A stretch of DNA of 47,530 nucleotides from Deltaproteobacteria bacterium (GCA_031276635.1 JAISMU010000082.1:1-47530), one strand, 5' to 3'; shown: positions 12,586 to 21,504, counted from the stretch's first letter. Notes: generated from the letters alone by a model not told the origin. Numbers and translations: made by a program.

Positions 12586-15402
12586 TCAGTCTCGGATTCG
12601 GCCTTTGGGAAACGCGGGTCCTTTGGGCTCAATGAGTTGGCGGTCCAGGTCCCGCAGCTGGGTGAGGAGAACTTGGCCGGCCGCGCTCACCCGGGCCTCG
12701 GCGCACTTGGCCCGTTCGTATTCCGCCCTCGCGCCCTCTTGAAAGAAAAATGAGCCGCCGCTCACTCGGGCCTGGCCATCAGGCCGGACCCGAAAGCTGA
12801 CCAGATACTCGCCCGCGGCCAACGGCTCGCCAGCGTGGACCCGCCGGAAACTCCCCAGGCCCGCCTCGTCAGCCAAGACGGCTAGGCCCTGTCTGGGGAG
12901 CCGGGGAAGCCGCTGGAGAGCCTGGTTTAAATCCCGGTCAACCGCTAAGTTGACCCGGACATAATAGCCCTGGAACAGAGAGAGGGGATCAACGGGGGCG
13001 ATTTTCAACAAGACAATTCGGCCTTGGCTTAAAATCAACTCATTGGCGAATACTCCCGAGTTCAGGGCGATCAGAGCGGCCAGCCCCAGTCCCAATATGG
13101 CCCAGGCTCTGGCTGGCCGCGGCCCGGGGAGGGGTTTTTGGGTTCCCCCAGGCTTGGGGCTGGTGGTCGGGGCCCCGAGTTTTCGGCAGGCCAGAGCCGC
13201 CCCCAGTAACAGAAGGCCGCTCAACGTTAGAGCCAGGCCCTTTTGAGGAAATGTCAGTCGCATTTGGTAGTGGAACATGGTTAGCCCGGCGCCCAGATAA
13301 GCGGCGGCCAGACCCAGGAGGCCCGGTTTGCCCCGGGCCCGGGCCAGGAGAGTCAGGGCCGCCCCCGGGCCCAGGGGAGCGAAGAGCCAGCTCAACCAGG
13401 CCAGGACCCCGGCCAAGGGGGCCAGAGTCCGCCTGGTCTGGGGCTGGGTCAGGCTCTTGACGGCGAAGGCCAGAAAACCCAGGCTTATTCCGGCCTCGGC
13501 GTAATGTAACCAGCCCAGGAACCGGTAACTCCAGGACCCCAGATTCGTGACGCTGGCCAGGGCGCTCAGAGCGAGGAAAAGGGCGGCTCCCTCGCTGACC
13601 CCACCCCATGGATTTCTCAGCGGGCGCCCGGTTGGGTGGGGGTCTGAGGGGTCGGGGGGGTTAGTTTGAGGCGGCCAATCCGTCAAGTTTAAGACTGCGA
13701 TATAGGTTAATAAAGCTAATATAGCATAAAAAACAGAATATATGTGTATTAAAATAGGAATGGTATTGTTAAAAAACAAAATAAATAAAAATAATATTGC
13801 TAAGGCGAAATTTATAGCTTTATGCCAAATTTTTCTCATAATTAAAGAAAATGATGAAAAAAGAATAAAATAAAAAAATAATACATATGTTATATTTCCA
13901 TCAACCATAAAAATAATAAATAAGCCGCTTACTAACCCAAATAGTATTAATGATAGAGATATTTGTTTTATGGAAAATTTTTCATTTTCTATGTTCCTTA
14001 CACCTATAAAGCAGAAAATAATTCCTATTAAAAGAATTATTTCAGGCCTGGGCCCCACGAGAGAAAAAATAAAGAGGCCCAAGAAGGCGACCGCCACCCA
14101 GACACCCAGAAAGATAAAGGTTTTCAGGTACCAGGGTAGGGCTCTCAGCTCGGCTTGAGCCTGGTCAGCGCTCAGTTCCAGGGCCGTGTCAGCCGCGAAG
14201 CCAGCTGGCCCGGTCAACCACTCTCGCCAGGCTTTCCCGGGGACTAAAGGGTTGATTGCCAGTGAGTTTTGGGTCTCGGTGATTTTTGGGGCCGAAAAAA
14301 TCGCCGGTTCCGCCATCGCCTCTGGCTCTGGGGAACTGACTGGCCTTTGGGCTTGGCGAAGGACCAGGAGGAGTTTGGTCACCCCCAGGATCAGGGCTAA
14401 ACTGCCCAGGCCGGCCAGGCAGATCCCCACCTCATCGCTGGTATTTCCCGGGAGCCACAAGAGGAATTTGGCGCCCACAGCCACGCCCAGGCTGAAAATC
14501 CCGGCGGTCAGGAAAAAGAAATTGGGCCGGGCTCGCCCGTAGTAATAACCCACCCCGGCCAGAATCGGCCAATAGGCCCAAACGATATTCGGGCTTTTCC
14601 AGGCGTTGGGCCAGTAATCTCCCCAGTCGAAATAATCTTGGAGTAGAAAGGCCACAAACTTGATGGTTACAAGGCTAAGGGTCAGGGCGCCCAGAACCTG
14701 GGTCAGCCAAGGGCTGGGGTCAAAGCGGGGAAAAAAGGCGGCCTCGGATGGCTTGGGCGAGGCCAACCCCCAACGCCGGAAGAGCTCGGCCAGGGCCCAG
14801 GCGACTAGGAGGAGGGTGGCCAGGGGATCGAAAATCGGCTCCCAGAGGACGGACCAGTAACTGCCCTCTGGTTTGGACCAGGTCAGCAGCCACAGGGCCC
14901 CGGTTAAAGAGGCCGCCAATCCCAGGCCGTTGGAGCGCAGCAAGGCGAACAAGGCCCCATTCAACAGAGTCCAGGCTCGGAAGAGCTCCCAGGAGTCGGC
15001 CCCGGTCTGATAAATTTGTCCGAAGAGAGCCAAGAGGGCTCCTCCGGCCAGAGCCATCCCCAGGCCGCCCAGGCGGCCTCGCCAAGGTTGGGGGCCAAAG
15101 GCGGCCAAAAGCGAGCAGCCCAGGAAGATGGCCTGGGCCACCGCGAGTTTGGGGCCCCGGGAGAGGGTCAGCCAATTCCAGGCCATGAGCGCAATCAAGC
15201 CCGCCAAAAAGGTCACCAGCCCCCCCAGGCCGAAGGCGCGTCCCAAAAACAACCGCCAAGCTTTTCCATCGGGCCAGAGCCCGAAATGTTGGAGACCGGC
15301 TCGGTAAAGCCCCGCGTCCAGCTGGCCGCGCTCATAAAGGCCCTGGAGCCGGTTGGCCGCGTTGATCCACTCTGGTTCGGACGCTGGTTCGGACGGGGGC
15401 AT
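12586..15402 (-). CDS. DUF2157 / DUF4401 / GDYXXLXY-domain membrane protein
   Basis: A 938-aa polytopic membrane protein. I chose the ATG at 15402 because AGGAG (15414-15410) lies 7 nt upstream; a frame open to 15504 would add 34 polar residues. The order is an N-terminal DUF2157 region (cytoplasmic helix, then many TM segments), a central DUF4401-like TM block, and a C-terminal GDYXXLXY-like domain after about residue 760, where the motif is degenerate (QGYYVRVNLAVD). Such fusions are known as envelope proteins of unknown role. Oddly, bases about 13685-14043 (residues about 453-572) are strongly AT-rich, with Ile/Phe-rich TM segments, while both flanks are GC-rich. The frame stays open throughout. 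Confidence 0.82.
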   Translation of the reverse strand: MPPSEPASEPEWINAANRLQGLYERGQLDAGLYRAGLQHFGLWPDGKAWRLFLGRAFGLGGLVTFLAGLIALMAWNWLTLSRGPKLAVAQAIFLGCSLLAAFGPQPWRGRLGGLGMALAGGALLALFGQIYQTGADSWELFRAWTLLNGALFALLRSNGLGLAASLTGALWLLTWSKPEGSYWSVLWEPIFDPLATLLLVAWALAELFRRWGLASPKPSEAAFFPRFDPSPWLTQVLGALTLSLVTIKFVAFLLQDYFDWGDYWPNAWKSPNIVWAYWPILAGVGYYYGRARPNFFFLTAGIFSLGVAVGAKFLLWLPGNTSDEVGICLAGLGSLALILGVTKLLLVLRQAQRPVSSPEPEAMAEPAIFSAPKITETQNSLAINPLVPGKAWREWLTGPAGFAADTALELSADQAQAELRALPWYLKTFIFLGVWVAVAFLGLFIFSLVGPRPEIILLIGIIFCFIGVRNIENEKFSIKQISLSLILFGLVSGLFIIFMVDGNITYVLFFYFILFSSFSLIMRKIWHKAINFALAILFLFILFFNNTIPILIHIYSVFYAILALLTYIAVLNLTDWPPQTNPPDPSDPHPTGRPLRNPWGGVSEGAALFLALSALASVTNLGSWSYRFLGWLHYAEAGISLGFLAFAVKSLTQPQTRRTLAPLAGVLAWLSWLFAPLGPGAALTLLARARGKPGLLGLAAAYLGAGLTMFHYQMRLTFPQKGLALTLSGLLLLGAALACRKLGAPTTSPKPGGTQKPLPGPRPARAWAILGLGLAALIALNSGVFANELILSQGRIVLLKIAPVDPLSLFQGYYVRVNLAVDRDLNQALQRLPRLPRQGLAVLADEAGLGSFRRVHAGEPLAAGEYLVSFRVRPDGQARVSGGSFFFQEGARAEYERAKCAEARVSAAGQVLLTQLRDLDRQLIEPKGPAFPKGRIRD

Positions 15403-15659
15403 GGTCGCTCTCCTGGTTTTTAGGCCCCTGATTCTGGGCCCCCAATTCTGTCCGTCTGGCTCTGGCCCGACGTCTGGCGCGGCCTGGGGCCTCAGACCGG
15501 CCAAAGTCGCTCGCGGCCGGTTATTGTCAATAAAAGTTCCGAGTTTGGCGATTAGGCCAAAAGGTCAGGGGTGTTTAACCGGCTCTGTCAGTGGAGAGGC
15601 TATTGCCCAGTCGTGGTCCCCGCCGCGACCGACTTTTGGCCGATTGGCCGAAAATAATC

Positions 15660-15787: not shown

Positions 15788-16990
15788 ATGGTTATCCTAG
15801 TTATCAACGCTGGCAGCTCCTCTGTTAAATTCACCATTTTTGACATGGCCAACCAGAAAAAAGTCTTGGCCTCTGGCCTGATCGAGCGCATCGGGATCGA
15901 GGGCACCACCATGAAGTACACCAATCATCGTGGGGAAGAGGTCAAGGGTGAGGTTCCGGTGAAAAACCCCCAGGACGCGGTCAAGATTATATCCGAGCGC
16001 CTTTTGGACGCCAAGGTCGGGGTTTTGAAAAGCCTCTCCGAGATTAAGGCCATTGGTCATCGGATTGTCCAGGGCATGGAGAAGATCCAGGAGCCGATTC
16101 TGTTGAGCGCTGAGGCGAAGAACATCGTCCGGGAGTGCGCCGTCCTGGCCCCTCTCCACAATCCCCACAACCTGATGGGCGTGGAGGCCTGCGAGGCCGT
16201 GCTGCCCGGGGTGCCTAACGTGGGCGTTTTTGACACCGCTTTCCACTCCACCATGCCGCCCCGGGCTTATCTTTACGGCCTGCCGTACAAATACTACGAG
16301 AAAGACCACATCCGGCGTTACGGCTTCCACGGCACCAGTCACGGATTTGTGGCTAAGGCCGCGGCCGCTCTGGATGGCCGGCCTTTGGAGAAGCTGCGAA
16401 TCATCACCGCCCATCTTGGCAATGGCGGCTCCCTGGCCGCGGTCAAGAATGGTCAGTGCCAGGACACCTCCATGGGCGTCACTCCCCTGGAAGGCGTCAT
16501 CATGGGCACCCGCTCGGGCGACGTGGACGCCACGGCTGTTTTGCATATTATGAAGGGCGAGGGCTTAACCCCGGATCAGGCGGATAACCTTCTCAATAAG
16601 CAAAGCGGCGTTTTGGGGCTGGCCAACATCGGCTCCTCCGACCTGCGCGACGTGGAGGCCGAGGCCAACAAAGGCAACAAACTCTGCGCCCAGGCCCTGG
16701 AAGTCTACGCCTACCGGGTTAAAAAATATATCGGGGCCTACATGGCCGCTTTGGGTGGCTTGGACATCCTGGTCTTTACCGCCGGGGTGGGCGAGAATTC
16801 CAGCACCATGCGGGCGGCCATTTTGCAAGATTTGGAGGGTATAGGCCTGAAACTCGACCCCAAGAAGAACTCTGTCCGCTCCCCCGAGCCGCGGGTCATC
16901 TCCACTGACGACAGCCCCATCAAGATTCACGTCATTCCCACCAATGAGGAGCTGGCCATCGCCGAGGCCACCTCGAAACTGGTGGCTTAG
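15788..16990 (+). CDS. ackA: Acetate kinase
   Basis: A 400-aa cytoplasmic enzyme that converts acetyl phosphate and ADP to acetate and ATP. Family signatures are all present: N-terminal VINAGSSSVKF (N7, S10, S12), FDTAFHSTMP, RYGFHGTSHGF, AHLGNGGS, the LEGVIMGTRSGDVD segment, and C-terminal FTAGVGENSS and IPTNEELAIA. Length is normal. The ATG at 15788 follows GAGGTAGGT. It stands alone, without a neighbouring pta, with its own promoter and a terminator shared with the convergent minus-strand operon. It fits acetate-forming energy metabolism. Confidence 0.98.
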   Translation: MVILVINAGSSSVKFTIFDMANQKKVLASGLIERIGIEGTTMKYTNHRGEEVKGEVPVKNPQDAVKIISERLLDAKVGVLKSLSEIKAIGHRIVQGMEKIQEPILLSAEAKNIVRECAVLAPLHNPHNLMGVEACEAVLPGVPNVGVFDTAFHSTMPPRAYLYGLPYKYYEKDHIRRYGFHGTSHGFVAKAAAALDGRPLEKLRIITAHLGNGGSLAAVKNGQCQDTSMGVTPLEGVIMGTRSGDVDATAVLHIMKGEGLTPDQADNLLNKQSGVLGLANIGSSDLRDVEAEANKGNKLCAQALEVYAYRVKKYIGAYMAALGGLDILVFTAGVGENSSTMRAAILQDLEGIGLKLDPKKNSVRSPEPRVISTDDSPIKIHVIPTNEELAIAEATSKLVA

Positions 16991-17010: not shown

Positions 17011-17042
17011 AAAAATGGCCGGCTTGTCCGGCCATTTTTTTT
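17011..17042. terminator. Bidirectional terminator between ackA and the PhoU-kinase gene
   Basis: A perfect stem AAAAATGGCCGG (17011-17022) / CCGGCCATTTTT (17028-17039) with a 5-nt loop. A T tract is present on the plus strand and an A tract (T on the minus strand) on the other side, so it can end both ackA and the convergent gene that stops at 17050. Confidence 0.9.
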
Positions 17043-17049
17043 GGCGCCT

Positions 17050-18759
17050 TCATCTCTGGCTCAGGCGCTCCTGGGCGTTGGGGCGGTTGGCGGCCAGAGA
17101 CTGGCCAGCCCCCTCGCTGGGCATACTCAGAATTTCCCGGCTGAAACGGAAATCAGCCCAATCCAGGCCCTTTTGCCCGTGCTCAACCAGCTTATCCCAC
17201 AGGTAGCGGGCCCGGAAGACAAACATCGCGGCCAGCTTTTCCTTCATGATAAAGCGGGTGCTGGTCACAAAGGAGCGAGCCAGGCCAAAAGCTAGGCGGG
17301 CCTCATAAGTCGGGTCCCCCATTTCCAGAGAGAAACGGTCAGCGAAGCGGGCCGTCTCCAGGGCCGCCTGGGTCAGCTGCCAGCGCCGCCCAACGCAGAA
17401 CACCGGCAGCCGGATGATGGACACCAGCATCACCGAGATGTCTTGCAGGTAATCTGACTCCCGGCTCCGGTAGAGATCAATGAATCGCAGCTGGCCGGCG
17501 CTGGGATTGTAGAGCAGGTTTGAGAGGTTGAAATCCCCGTGGATGCGAGCGGTGAAGGGGGCGTGGAGGCCTGCCTCCATCTCCTTGGCCTCGGCCAGGA
17601 GCCTTTCCAGGGGGGGGACTTTCAAGCTCCCAATGGCCCCGAAGTGGCTCATCAGTTTGGGATAGAGCGTGGTCGCCTCGGCTAGGCGGCTTTCGGCCTG
17701 GCGGCTGAACTCGGCCTGGGCGGGCTTGTCCTGGCGGGTGGCCCGCCAGAGATCGGTCATGGTCTCCATGGCCAGCTTCAAGCCCCGCATGGCGTCTAAG
17801 TGGGTGTTTTCCAGGAAAAGGGCCTGGAGCGTCCGGCTGGGGAAGAACTCCAGAATCAGGGCCGCCTCCTGGCCCTCCCGGTCGGGGACAAAGGCCTTGA
17901 CCCGGGGGGTGAGGCCAGGCTTGAGGGTGGCCCAAAGCTCCAGGTTTTCTCGCTCCATGGCCAGCTTAAAGGCCGGGCCGTGCTTGAAGAGGACCGGCTC
18001 TTCCCCTTCTTGAGTGCCCACCACCCCAATTCGGCAACCCGAGCGCCCGCCCCAGATGGATCGGAAATCCAGCCGCCCCGGCTCCAGGCTCTGACCGGTG
18101 GCCTTCAAGCCCGCCCCCAGGGCCTTGAATTGCTCCAGCTTGATGTTCTCGCCCAGGATGAAATAGATAATCTTCTCCCCGATCTCCAGGAGCATGTCCC
18201 CGGTCCGCTCCAGGTAATGGATGATCATGAGAGCGGTGACCAGGTTCTTGGGGTTGGCCGGGCCGCTGAATTCCTGGATTAACCTGGCGAAGCGGTCAGC
18301 GTAGAGGGCGTCGAGCTTTTCCTCAACCTGGCCCAGGCGGATGGCCAGGCTCACGTCCCGGTGAGCGATGGCCGGGTAAATCAGCTCCAGGCCCAGAAAA
18401 ATCTCCTGGAAAAACTCCCCCAGGTTATAGCTTTTCAGGAATCCCACGTCGGCCAGGTAACCGGCCTGGCCGTCGAGGTTCAGCAATAGCTCGGCCACCC
18501 GGTCCAATCGGGAGGCGATGGAGGACATGGCTTGCAGAAAAAGGCTGTCCTTGGGGCCGCTGGTCTTGGTGAAGACCATTTCCAGGGTTTCCTTCTGGGC
18601 CAGGGCGACCTGCGTGGAGACATAGGCGACCCGGTTATACAGACCGCGGCTTTTGTTGGGATCCTTTTTCAGCAGAATGTCCCGGGCCTCCATGGCCACC
18701 TGGAGGACTTCCCGGGAGAGGAGCTTGATTCCGGCCTTGATTTCCTCAAACTGGGGCAT
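17050..18759 (-). CDS. PhoU-domain / aminoglycoside-phosphotransferase-like kinase fusion
   Basis: A 569-aa two-domain protein. Residues about 1-205 form a PhoU-like helical domain ending in HYLERTGDMLLEIGEKIIYF, close to the PhoU ERxGD signature. Residues about 250-569 form an APH/choline-kinase-like fold, with a probable ATP lysine in VLFKHGP (K259), the catalytic loop HGDFNLSNLL (H407, D409, N414) and the metal Asp in FIDLYR (D428). All kinase residues look intact. The substrate is unknown. I chose ATG 18759, which overlaps the end of the amphi-Trp gene by 14 nt. The 37 residues upstream are Arg/Pro-rich and out of keeping with PhoU. With the PHP and amphi-Trp genes it forms a compact operon, probably a phosphorylation/dephosphorylation pair. 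Confidence 0.85.
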   Translation of the reverse strand: MPQFEEIKAGIKLLSREVLQVAMEARDILLKKDPNKSRGLYNRVAYVSTQVALAQKETLEMVFTKTSGPKDSLFLQAMSSIASRLDRVAELLLNLDGQAGYLADVGFLKSYNLGEFFQEIFLGLELIYPAIAHRDVSLAIRLGQVEEKLDALYADRFARLIQEFSGPANPKNLVTALMIIHYLERTGDMLLEIGEKIIYFILGENIKLEQFKALGAGLKATGQSLEPGRLDFRSIWGGRSGCRIGVVGTQEGEEPVLFKHGPAFKLAMERENLELWATLKPGLTPRVKAFVPDREGQEAALILEFFPSRTLQALFLENTHLDAMRGLKLAMETMTDLWRATRQDKPAQAEFSRQAESRLAEATTLYPKLMSHFGAIGSLKVPPLERLLAEAKEMEAGLHAPFTARIHGDFNLSNLLYNPSAGQLRFIDLYRSRESDYLQDISVMLVSIIRLPVFCVGRRWQLTQAALETARFADRFSLEMGDPTYEARLAFGLARSFVTSTRFIMKEKLAAMFVFRARYLWDKLVEHGQKGLDWADFRFSREILSMPSEGAGQSLAANRPNAQERLSQR

Positions 18760-19120
18760 TGTCCGGCCCGCCCTCCCCAGGGGAGGGGGCGGCCTCCTCT
18801 GGCTCCTTGCCCGGCTTAGGCTCGTTCTTAGACTCATGGTCTGGCAGAGGCTCATTATCCAGGCTGTCAAATGGGAGCGACAGTTGCTTATGGGCCGTGG
18901 TCTCCACCCAGCTGAGGGAAATGGTCAGGTTGACCTGGCCTTTGCGGCGGGAGGTGTCAAGGCCCAGCTCAATAATTTCGGCCGGCCTCAGGATAAGCTG
19001 GTTGTTCTGGTCATTGAGACGTAGCTCGCCATTTTGGAAGCCTTGGATCAAGGATTGCAGGTAGCGGGCCACGTCCTGGGGATCAGTGACAAAATTATAA
19101 TGAAATCGGCTTTTGCTCAT
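18746..19120 (-). CDS. amphi-Trp domain protein
   Basis: A 124-aa protein. The first about 80 residues fit the amphi-Trp domain: an N-terminal helix (DVARYLQSLIQGFQNGELRL), then a strand region and VNLTISLSWVETT with the late Trp. The last about 40 residues are an acidic, Pro/Glu/Lys-rich disordered tail. Amphi-Trp domains occur in haloarchaea and in Desulfovibrio-type bacteria, including the GAK (ATP-grasp and kinase) gene sets, but their molecular role is not known to me. Here it sits between a PHP phosphoesterase and a PhoU-kinase and overlaps the latter. It may be a substrate or adaptor of these enzymes (inference). Start ATG at 19120 follows GGGG. Confidence 0.82.
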   Translation of the reverse strand: MSKSRFHYNFVTDPQDVARYLQSLIQGFQNGELRLNDQNNQLILRPAEIIELGLDTSRRKGQVNLTISLSWVETTAHKQLSLPFDSLDNEPLPDHESKNEPKPGKEPEEAAPSPGEGGPDNAPV

Positions 19121-19177
19121 AATAATTGCCCCAATGTGGACTGTTTTTCCGCGAGTTTGCCTTTTGCGCCCGGTCTT

Positions 19178-20338
19178 TTAGGCCAAGCGGGCGCGATACT
19201 CGTCCATGGTTTTCTCCCGGCTCTGGCCGGCCCTGGCTAAGGCCTTGGCCACCTGGGGATCCCGCCAGGGGGACTGAAAGCCAATCTCCCGGTCGAAGTT
19301 GTTTTTCTCCTCGGATTTCTGATCTGGCCGGATTTTGGAAGACATATGCGTGTCGTCCCCCATGAAGGCCAACAGCGGGCGCTTGGTTTTTTTCTGGCGG
19401 GCCAGGGTGTCGATGAGAAAAATCGTGTGATTGGGGGTTGAGGGGTTCCAGACCTCCCAACCGTCCACGTCCAGATCATCCATCAAGATCGGCCAGAACA
19501 GCGGGGGATGGGGAATGACCACCCCGGCCCCCAAACCTCGGGCCTCCTCAATCACTTCCCGGACGGTGTGAAAGCGGCTGGGCATCAGGCGCCTTTTGAC
19601 CTGGCTTTTAACCAGGCGCCCCAGGGCCATGGCCCGATCCAGCAGAGCCGGGGGATACTCCTGGCCCCGGGCGGCCATGAAATCCGGGAGCAGCCGGTTT
19701 TTCAGCATCTCGGCCCGGTCCGAGTCGCCCAGGTCAGCCTTCTCAATGAGGTTTTTCAGGCGCTTGGCCAATAAGCGGGCCAGGTTAATCGAGTCCGTGG
19801 AAAAGCCCTGTTTTTTTATTTCGTTTTTGATCGCCTCGTCTGGGGAGATGAGGCTTTCCAGGACATCCAGCAGCTGCAGGGCCCGGTACCGGAAAGTCCG
19901 CTCCATCATTCCGGCCAGGGTCACGGCCTTGGGCAGGAGGCGCCCGGGCAGGTGAATCAGCAGCTGGACCTTGAGGCCATACTCGGGAGCGTAGGCGTCA
20001 GCCTCCACCCCGGCCCATTCGCCCAGAGTCATCAGGCGGTTATGCTGGGTAGGGATGACCAGGCGGTCGTCAGCCGCGGGAAAAGCTTGGTTGACCCTCT
20101 CCGCGATCAGGTCCAGGGGGATCCACTCGGGGTGAAAGTGGACTGCCAGAACTCTTTTCTCCTCAAGATCTTGACGGGTGGGGCGGGCGGCCACCGTGGT
20201 TTCCCGAGAGGTCAATTCAACTGAGGTCAGGCGATTAAAAGCGGCCCAGTCCTCACTGGGCGATTCCTTGACGAATTGGGCGGCCCCACGAGGCGCCGGG
20301 GCGTTGGGCGCGGCTGTCTTCATTCCCAAAAATTCCAC
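19178..20338 (-). CDS. PHP-type metal-dependent phosphoesterase
   Basis: A 386-aa protein with PHP-like metal motifs: VHFHPEW (HxH, about residues 91-97), IPTQHN, IPHPPLFW, WEVWNPSTPNHT and a C-terminal GDDTHM (DxH). PHP domains hydrolyse phosphate esters with a trinuclear metal site, as in histidinol phosphatases and polymerase proofreaders. An inserted helical section (about 175-265) separates the motifs. The start is uncertain: GTG 20338 has AGGGG very close upstream, and ATG 20323 has only GGGA. It begins 42 bp after ybaB ends and is followed 57 bp later by the amphi-Trp gene. In this operon it could reverse the action of the PhoU-kinase (inference). Confidence 0.8.
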   Translation of the reverse strand: MEFLGMKTAAPNAPAPRGAAQFVKESPSEDWAAFNRLTSVELTSRETTVAARPTRQDLEEKRVLAVHFHPEWIPLDLIAERVNQAFPAADDRLVIPTQHNRLMTLGEWAGVEADAYAPEYGLKVQLLIHLPGRLLPKAVTLAGMMERTFRYRALQLLDVLESLISPDEAIKNEIKKQGFSTDSINLARLLAKRLKNLIEKADLGDSDRAEMLKNRLLPDFMAARGQEYPPALLDRAMALGRLVKSQVKRRLMPSRFHTVREVIEEARGLGAGVVIPHPPLFWPILMDDLDVDGWEVWNPSTPNHTIFLIDTLARQKKTKRPLLAFMGDDTHMSSKIRPDQKSEEKNNFDREIGFQSPWRDPQVAKALARAGQSREKTMDEYRARLA

Positions 20339-20380: not shown

Positions 20381-20719
20381 TTAAAAAAGCCCGGAAAGCC
20401 CTGACAGATTCAGGCCGGCCGTGATTTTGGACGCCTCCTTGAGCATCTCGTTCTGGATTTGGGAGAGAGCCTCGTTGACCGCGGCCAGGATCAGGTCGCC
20501 CAACATATCCGGGTCATTGGGATCGATCACCTCTGGCTCGATTTTGATGGACACAATCCGGTTAAGCCCGTTGGCGGTGACAGTCACCATGCCCCCGCCG
20601 ACAGTGGCGGTGAAGGTTTTCTGGTGAGCCTCCTCCTGGGCTTTGAGAATTTTTTCTCGGACGAGTTTGGCCTGCTTGATCAGATCCAGGGCTCCGTTGT
20701 TGAGGGCGTCTTCGGACAT
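20381..20719 (-). CDS. ybaB: YbaB/EbfC nucleoid-associated protein
   Basis: A 112-aa DNA-binding protein with the family core: a coiled-coil N-terminus, then TATVGGGMVTVTANGLNRIVSIKI, and DMLGDLILAAVNEAL. It forms dimers that bind and compact DNA. I chose ATG 20719 because GGAG (20728-20725) lies 5 nt upstream and overlaps the alternative GTG at 20725. In most bacteria the order is dnaX-ybaB-recR. Here dnaX lies upstream on the same strand but about 1 kb of AT-rich, partly decayed DNA separates them, and recR does not follow; a PHP gene does. Confidence 0.95.
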   Translation of the reverse strand: MSEDALNNGALDLIKQAKLVREKILKAQEEAHQKTFTATVGGGMVTVTANGLNRIVSIKIEPEVIDPNDPDMLGDLILAAVNEALSQIQNEMLKEASKITAGLNLSGLSGLF

Positions 20720-21242
20720 GGTCACTCCAAAAAAGTTCTGGGTTTATTTTGCCCCGGGCATTTTTGGTTCCCCTCGCCAAAACCTGGCCTGGGGGCGTTG
20801 GGGGGTCAAAGGCCTTAAAACAGGCCAGGTTCTGGGCCAAAATGGTGGTCAGGATTTACCTTGAGGCCGGGCGAGTTAAATCTGAATCTGACCCAGGGGG
20901 CTGGTCCTAGCGAACAAACATATCTGTGGATCTATTGTTGAACAATTCGACAAAAAAAACAACAGCTATTTGAGCCGTGGTTTGGTCCCCGCCTGAAGGC
21001 CCATTTTTGGGCGACAAAACTTCTCCCTCGGGGGGCGCCAATGGCCCCCCGACCGACCGCTGGCCAGGTCAAGAGCCTGAATTGGCCCAGGATTCGGCTT
21101 TAGTCAGCGGCTATAACTTAAATTACGAGGTATGGTTCCTGATAGTATAATTTTTGTTTATTTAATAGGTATTATTAATAGAATAAATTATAAAATAATG
21201 AACATTAAATCGATCTAATTAATTATTTTAATGTTAATTAAT

Positions 21243-21300: not shown

Positions 21301-21504
21301 TTAGTTGACCGCCACCAGGCCCAGGCTCTCTCGTTGGCGGGCCAAGGTCTGGCCAATCAGGGTGGCCGCGGCCAGAGGATCGGGCTCATAGACAATGGAG
21401 CCGCCATACTTGGCGGCCAGAGTCTCGTCCAGGTACCGATGAATCAAAGGCGCGCCCTGGACCGGCAAAGTCACGCCCAGCGTGACTTTCAGGCCTGAGG
21501 CCAC
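21301..21504 (-). pseudogene. C-terminal remnant of a CooS-type anaerobic CO dehydrogenase
   Basis: A 67-codon fragment whose order of motifs fits the C-terminus of anaerobic CO dehydrogenase catalytic subunits: LGVTLPVQGAP (relatives read LGVLPPVGGSP), then LDETLAAKYGG, VYEPDPLAAATLI (relatives EEDPxKAAxLI) and a final RQRESLGL (relatives KRKALGI). The match is from family knowledge, not a search. Homology stops abruptly at about 21504, where the frame runs on into AT-rich sequence, so about 90 percent of the gene is missing. It suggests that the lineage had, or still has elsewhere, Wood-Ljungdahl-type CO metabolism. Confidence 0.65.

Follow-up and report, generated by a model that had tools for sequence, protein, structure and literature searches.

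We analyzed a tight cluster of three minus-strand genes in a 47,530-nucleotide stretch of DNA from Deltaproteobacteria bacterium (GCA_031276635.1 JAISMU010000082.1:1-47530), hereafter the window, and compared it with the GAK (ATP-grasp and kinase) gene system. In the 5' to 3' direction, the cluster encodes a PHP-superfamily phosphoesterase, an amphi-Trp domain protein, and an APH-fold kinase fused to a PhoU domain, with an overlap between the last two genes. The host genome (G000) measures 3.48 Mb and is 94% complete. Its close relatives, as returned by one genome-collection scan that yielded nothing more distant, are metagenome-assembled genomes named 'Deltaproteobacteria bacterium', whose bin series we take to originate from termite guts. 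The genes and their overlap are as follows.

19178..20323, minus strand: PHP-superfamily phosphoesterase, 381 amino acids from ATG 20323, with GTG 20338 also possible (AlphaFold2 model and Foldseek, invariant residues, motifs)
18746..19120, minus strand: amphi-Trp domain protein, 124 amino acids, with a genus-specific acidic tail (TIGR04354, 4e-11, above cut-off)
18746..18759, minus strand: 14-nucleotide overlap of the amphi-Trp stop and the kinase start (sequence)
17050..18759, minus strand: PhoU-domain and APH-fold kinase fusion, 569 amino acids, from ATG 18759 (PF01895, PF01636, AlphaFold2 model, Foldseek)

Protein products of the trio

A first-pass annotation of the window had reported the three genes, their order, their strand, and the overlap, all of which are present, and its extents captured the genes but were too long at two of the starts. 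The kinase most likely begins at ATG 18759, the 606-amino-acid open reading frame from 18870 being a mechanical over-extension. Similarly, the sequence makes ATG 20323 a more likely start for the PHP gene than GTG 20338, because the proteins of two close relatives (L032 and L034) begin with 'MK' there. A gap of 57 bp separates the PHP and amphi-Trp genes, while the overlap of the amphi-Trp and kinase genes is likely to couple their translation.

The first protein is not scored by any Pfam or NCBIfam family, and a sequence-profile search against solved structures returned no match, so a structure comparison was needed. Its AlphaFold2 model (predicted local distance difference test score, pLDDT, 86) was closest in the PDB to the PHP phosphoesterases 3e0f (E 3e-5) and 3o0f (1e-4) and to RNase AM 9etk (1e-3), and no other fold came close to significance in Foldseek. 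Residues H67, H69, E71, H99, E112, H129, H277, D328, D329, and H331 (numbered on the 386-amino-acid open reading frame) are invariant in 19 homologues. The motifs HP, WEVWNP, and GDDTH align with AHP, LEVYHP, and GSDFH in a standard PHP protein that this genome also encodes, and, by eye, HxHxE, QHN, GVE, and xLxxH match its DLHTH, CDHD, GVE, and HVLGL. Placed by motif, the candidate metal ligands H67, H69, H99, E112, H129, H277, D329, and H331 are all invariant, but the motif II Asp is replaced by Gln. The predicted fold thus assigns the protein to the PHP superfamily, in agreement with the metal phosphoesterase proposed in the first-pass annotation. The fold and most candidate metal ligands are common to this protein and to PHP phosphoesterases such as BAD_1165 and RNase AM/TrpH; in contrast to them, it falls below family detection, has its HxH half separated from its HP half by a long helical insert, and reads TQHN rather than xDHD at motif II.

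The amphi-Trp protein passes NCBIfam TIGR04354 (42.9 bits against a cut-off of 31) and stays under the Pfam cut-off (18.8 against 27). Its acidic tail, also noted in the first-pass annotation, is real but does not extend beyond the genus of the window and a few relatives. In the 78 loci where the kinase is near full length, 75 amphi-Trp copies were found adjoining it, and the domain is nearly invariant at a Trp (100%), an Asp (97%), a Pro (97%), a Gly (96%), and a Phe (92%). Where enough flank is available, amphi-Trp is adjacent to the kinase in 69 of 71 loci, including 16/16 in the window's family, and no other gene stays with the kinase as consistently.

The kinase passes the Pfam cut-offs for PhoU (PF01895, 2e-9) and APH (PF01636, 2e-7), and its AlphaFold2 model (pLDDT 88) matched APH(3')-Ia (1e-8), fructosamine and MTR kinases, and PhoU 2i0m (TM 0.85 of target) in Foldseek. 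K259, E269, HGD 407-409, N414, and D428 are invariant in 16 homologues, in which the ERxGD motif of the PhoU domain (E184-D188) is kept as well; the Brenner motif HGDxxxxN, the metal-binding Asp, the Lys/Glu pair, and the fold are those of the APH kinase superfamily. The fusion with intact catalytic residues was therefore correctly recognized at the outset. Judged by its score of 40.8 bits against the PhoU equivalog TIGR02135 (cut-off 130.25), the N-terminus is a PhoU-like domain and not PhoU itself: it shares the PhoU fold and the ERxGD motif with this regulator of the Pho regulon, and trio loci often adjoin true pstB-phoU-phoR genes, but here the domain is fused to a kinase. Likewise, the catalytic HGDxxxxN, Asp, Lys, and Glu are common to the APH, fructosamine, and MTR kinases, whereas the window kinase has an N-terminal PhoU domain, forms its own family, and has no antibiotic context. 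In five genomes of one genus of the window's family (g7; G012, G024, G027, G030, and G033), an insert of ~75-150 residues separates the PhoU and APH domains. A very divergent stand-alone paralogue (L134:8975-10732, G510 contig 12), with an end branch of 1.8, has no adjoining PHP, amphi-Trp, or GAK genes.

Position in the GAK operon, core loss, and selection

GAK genes follow the order PHP, amphi-Trp, PhoU-kinase, GAK ATP-grasp, HprK-related B, CofD-like, and second amphi-Trp/XXXCH across two classes of Desulfobacterota and in additional families. For example, in two families of the window's class (f3 and f5), the trio is followed by the GAK ATP-grasp (TIGR04356, 1e-133 to 1e-110), HprK-related kinase B (TIGR04355), and CofD-like (TIGR04357) genes, and then by a second amphi-Trp gene (TIGR04354) and an XXXCH gene (TIGR04358; in L051). 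The same order recurs in f35, f39, f41, f45, f47, and more. The trio is thus, with very little doubt, the conserved 5' half of the GAK operon, and hence a GAK-derived module. The first-pass annotation had rightly mentioned GAK, but it set the system aside for want of an HprK-related kinase, a step that does not hold, since relatives have exactly these GAK genes (ATP-grasp, HprK-related B, and CofD-like) directly after the trio. In some GAK loci (L047:3611-4096 and L051:13982-14455), the second amphi-Trp protein has a long Lys/Ala/Pro-rich, histone H1-like tail, and in others the tail is acidic. Such H1-like tails resemble polyphosphate- or DNA-binding tails.

Adjacency outside the window's family was counted only in loci with enough flank. 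Of these, 53/55 have amphi-Trp immediately before the kinase, 51/55 have PHP upstream, and 46/52 have ATP-grasp immediately after the kinase. Across 297 sampled genomes of the class of G098, which we take to be the Desulfovibrio class, 132 carry the kinase, 131 the GAK ATP-grasp, and 130 both (Fisher p ~1e-81, uncorrected for phylogeny). The three single-gene exceptions (two kinase-only, one ATP-grasp-only) are incomplete genomes (78-87% complete), one of them with the gene at a contig edge. A phylum-wide sample of 247 genomes gave 17 with the kinase, 16 with ATP-grasp, and 15 with both, and the two kinase-only genomes both belong to the window's family; without that family, 15 genomes have both, none the kinase only, and one ATP-grasp only. 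The trio is therefore conserved well outside the strain, far in excess of chance. Partial separations also occur: genus g190 has PHP, amphi-Trp, and kinase at one site (L116, L135) and amphi-Trp, kinase, ATP-grasp, and HprK-related B at another (L117, L136), and in g172 and G491 the trio is followed by HprK-related B with no adjacent ATP-grasp (L097, L082, L107). The trio therefore behaves as a module.

GAK is already known as a curated but uncharacterized system, of which the window carries a front-half-only variant. It has curated family names, and we found no paper on its function in the open literature; full-text searches on amphi-Trp and on PhoU-kinase fusions likewise gave nothing relevant and no mention of amphi-Trp, consistent with the earlier remark that no function had been described for the trio. 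To our knowledge, PHP and PhoU-kinase have not been described as part of GAK. Our analysis assigns three more genes to the GAK operon and reveals the almost perfect co-inheritance of kinase and ATP-grasp over the 297 genomes.

The window shares with GAK the PHP, amphi-Trp, and PhoU-kinase orthologues and their order at the 5' end; in contrast, the ATP-grasp, HprK-related B, and CofD-like families are each absent from all 37 genomes of the window's family, G000 included, far beyond what genome incompleteness explains. No XXXCH protein was seen near the trio, the rest of the genome not having been searched for it. The kinase, full-length or fragmentary, is found in most of the 37 genomes. In the kinase tree, the window's family forms a single clade (Shimodaira-Hasegawa-like approximate likelihood ratio test support 100) whose stem branch is long, at 1.32 changes per column, and which lies beside f3 of the same order, which has a complete operon, and f5 of the same class (support 90 and 99). 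Because the core is absent throughout and the tree places the family beside f3, the simplest reading is that the GAK core was lost in the ancestor of the window's family. This family is thus a natural reduction experiment, showing that part of GAK can persist without its core.

The retained genes are under purifying selection. The ratio of nonsynonymous to synonymous substitution rates (dN/dS) between close species is ~0.06-0.1 for the kinase and PHP, an approximate value, as dS is near saturation, and frames and catalytic residues are intact across ~10 genera of the family. In two of its genera (g6 and g7), PHP lies elsewhere in the genome but is kept (e.g., in G029, with the kinase at 1.83 Mb and PHP at 3.84 Mb). 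In G023 (contigs C102 and C118), both genes are pseudogenes with many stops, an apparent co-loss. At the genome level, PHP and kinase occur together in 47 genomes and singly in three and one, and 12 genomes have neither. This co-occurrence and the joint decay in G023 suggest a common pathway.

Phosphate genes and candidate functions

In the class of G098, 11 of the 38 loci with annotated system genes lie within ~10 kb of Pst, PhoU, PhoR, or PhoH-family genes (p ~2e-6 under an assumed chance rate of 5% per locus, the loci not being independent). Four loci (L101, L104, L108, and L131) have the single-strand order phoR-pstB-phoU followed by PHP, amphi-Trp, and kinase, with pstC-pstA further upstream in L131, and L099 has pstB-phoU before the trio. 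NCBIfam confirmed PhoU above cut-off in L101, L108, and L131, PstB in L101, and PstA in L131. Outside this class, pst-phoU and phoH2 accompany the locus in L053 and L054 (f5), phoH2 in L048, and pstB-phoU-phoR with a phoH-like gene in L081 (f35), bringing the genera with Pho-type neighbors to ~14 altogether. Two observations support a phosphate link: phoU directly adjoins PHP in five genera, belonging to two families, and the kinase carries a fused PhoU domain. On balance, the evidence leans toward a role of the trio module in phosphate homeostasis. The recurrent position directly downstream of phoR-pstB-phoU gives a first functional lead for GAK, and it makes the system testable in Desulfovibrio. 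Under phosphate limitation, Pst and PhoR are important in Desulfovibrio alaskensis G20, and glyco- and ornithine lipids replace phospholipids (PMC5193443).

Gene content, catalytic residues, folds, co-inheritance, core loss, and neighborhoods were computed, whereas we infer the roles of the PhoU domain, the kinase, amphi-Trp, and PHP. The best explanation, to which we assign a probability of roughly 0.55, is that the front half of GAK was kept after core loss and works as a phosphate-linked two-enzyme module. The PhoU domain would sense the phosphate or metal state of the cell, or dock on Pst/PhoR-type partners, and gate the kinase. The substrate of the kinase would be a small molecule or a modified peptide, phosphorylated at a hydroxyl, as the nearest folds are small-molecule kinases. 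Amphi-Trp may be an obligate non-catalytic partner of the kinase (an adaptor or substrate carrier), given their near-constant adjacency, and the PHP enzyme would hydrolyze the corresponding phosphoester, resetting the pathway or releasing phosphate. Where the GAK locus is complete, the product would pass on to its ATP-grasp ligase, HprK-like kinase, and CofD-like transferase, and in the window only the kinase/phosphoesterase end of this route would be left. That the kinase and PHP share one substrate pool is a tentative proposal, with the odds somewhat against it. We are similarly cautious about a broader picture, in which GAK could be a phosphate-regulon pathway of eight components (PHP, amphi-Trp, PhoU-kinase, ATP-grasp, HprK-like, CofD-like, second amphi-Trp, and XXXCH) that is controlled in a PhoU-like manner and makes or attaches a phosphorylated compound. 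The trio of the window would then be a stripped-down, still-selected minimal phosphate-signaling circuit of kinase, phosphoesterase, and amphi-Trp partner.

Several observations weigh against the phosphate-linked two-enzyme module. PHP and kinase are unlinked in two genera, so a single complex is not required, and the very long stem branch of the kinase may reflect a shift of function after core loss. In the window's family, the trio sits between dnaX-ybaB and ackA and has no Pho genes as neighbors; the phosphate link is therefore carried over from relatives. In addition, the main text of PMC5193443 does not mention HPr, ATP-grasp, CofD, PHP, or PhoH, and the presence of GAK in G20 was not determined.

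Alternatively, the PHP enzyme could scavenge phosphate as a nuclease or nucleotide phosphatase, the kinase being a separate phosphate-state signal, with regulation shared but not the substrate. Such a division would suit the nearest PHP folds, which include RNase AM and a PHP phosphoesterase, as well as the Pho neighborhood and the unlinked PHP genes of two genera. We nevertheless consider it unlikely, as PHP and kinase occur together in nearly all genomes that have either, and decayed together in G023.

A second alternative, put forward in the first-pass annotation, is reversible protein phosphorylation, in which the kinase phosphorylates amphi-Trp and PHP removes the phosphate. The adjacency of kinase and amphi-Trp and the intact kinase motifs are compatible with it, yet the small protein does not support it: across its 75 copies, we found no conserved Ser, Thr, Tyr, or His in the domain (the best being a Ser at 68%, as opposed to the invariant Trp, Asp, Pro, Gly, and Phe), and the tails, including the acidic one, are not conserved. 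The nearest solved folds, APH(3'), fructosamine kinase, and MTR kinase, moreover act on small molecules, and PHP can lie elsewhere in the genome. A circuit of this kind is improbable. Overall, the observation made at the outset was confirmed, and its interpretation was partly supported.

It is very improbable that the trio in the window's family is a decaying, functionless relic of the lost GAK system. The loss of the core in 37/37 genomes, the long kinase stem branch, and the pseudogenes in G023 could be read in this way, but the low dN/dS of kinase and PHP largely refutes it, and the intact frames and catalytic residues in ~10 genera and the retention of amphi-Trp beside the kinase in every locus counted (16/16) also speak against it. 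Finally, an antibiotic-resistance or salvage kinase located there by chance is scarcely credible: the fold is that of APH and the nearest structures are aminoglycoside phosphotransferases, but sequence similarity to APH(3') reaches only E 2e-4 over ~50 residues, and the homologues, all with a fused PhoU domain, form one coherent family in a constant, non-resistance operon, rather than falling among antibiotic or choline kinases of unrelated context.

Surroundings of the trio

The following features flank the trio and lie outside the module.

20381..20725, minus strand: ybaB/ebfC, upstream neighbor (PF02575, 4e-29), adjoining in 8 genera of the window's family
17013..17043, no strand assigned: hairpin bordered by runs of A and T, located where the kinase and ackA genes converge (AAAAATGGCCGG-CTTGT-CCGGCCATTTTTTTT)
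15788..16990, plus strand: ackA acetate kinase, convergent neighbor (TIGR00016, 1e-145), position kept in 8 genera

The arrangement ileS-dnaX-ybaB-PHP-amphi-Trp-kinase with convergent ackA is recognizable in ~8 genera of the window's family. In the window, ybaB is 57 bp from the ATG of PHP (42-57 bp depending on the start chosen). The hairpin, which was recognized by eye and is absent from the hairpin scan list, is by its sequence a likely bidirectional terminator. In another locus (L083:9856-16361, G265 contig 74), a pta-ackA pair lies inside the GAK cluster, between HprK-related B and CofD-like. Together with the ackA gene beside the trio in the window's family, this possibly points to a link with acetyl phosphate, or to chance, and is a weak lead. 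Two further genes of the window were noted on the minus strand. A 972-amino-acid membrane protein (12586-15504) is a fusion of DUF2157, DUF4401, and GDYXXLXY domains. An orphan open reading frame of 67 amino acids (21301-21504) lies in the AT-rich sequence that separates dnaX from ybaB; it resembles the 3' portion of a longer, conserved gene and is perhaps a gene remnant.

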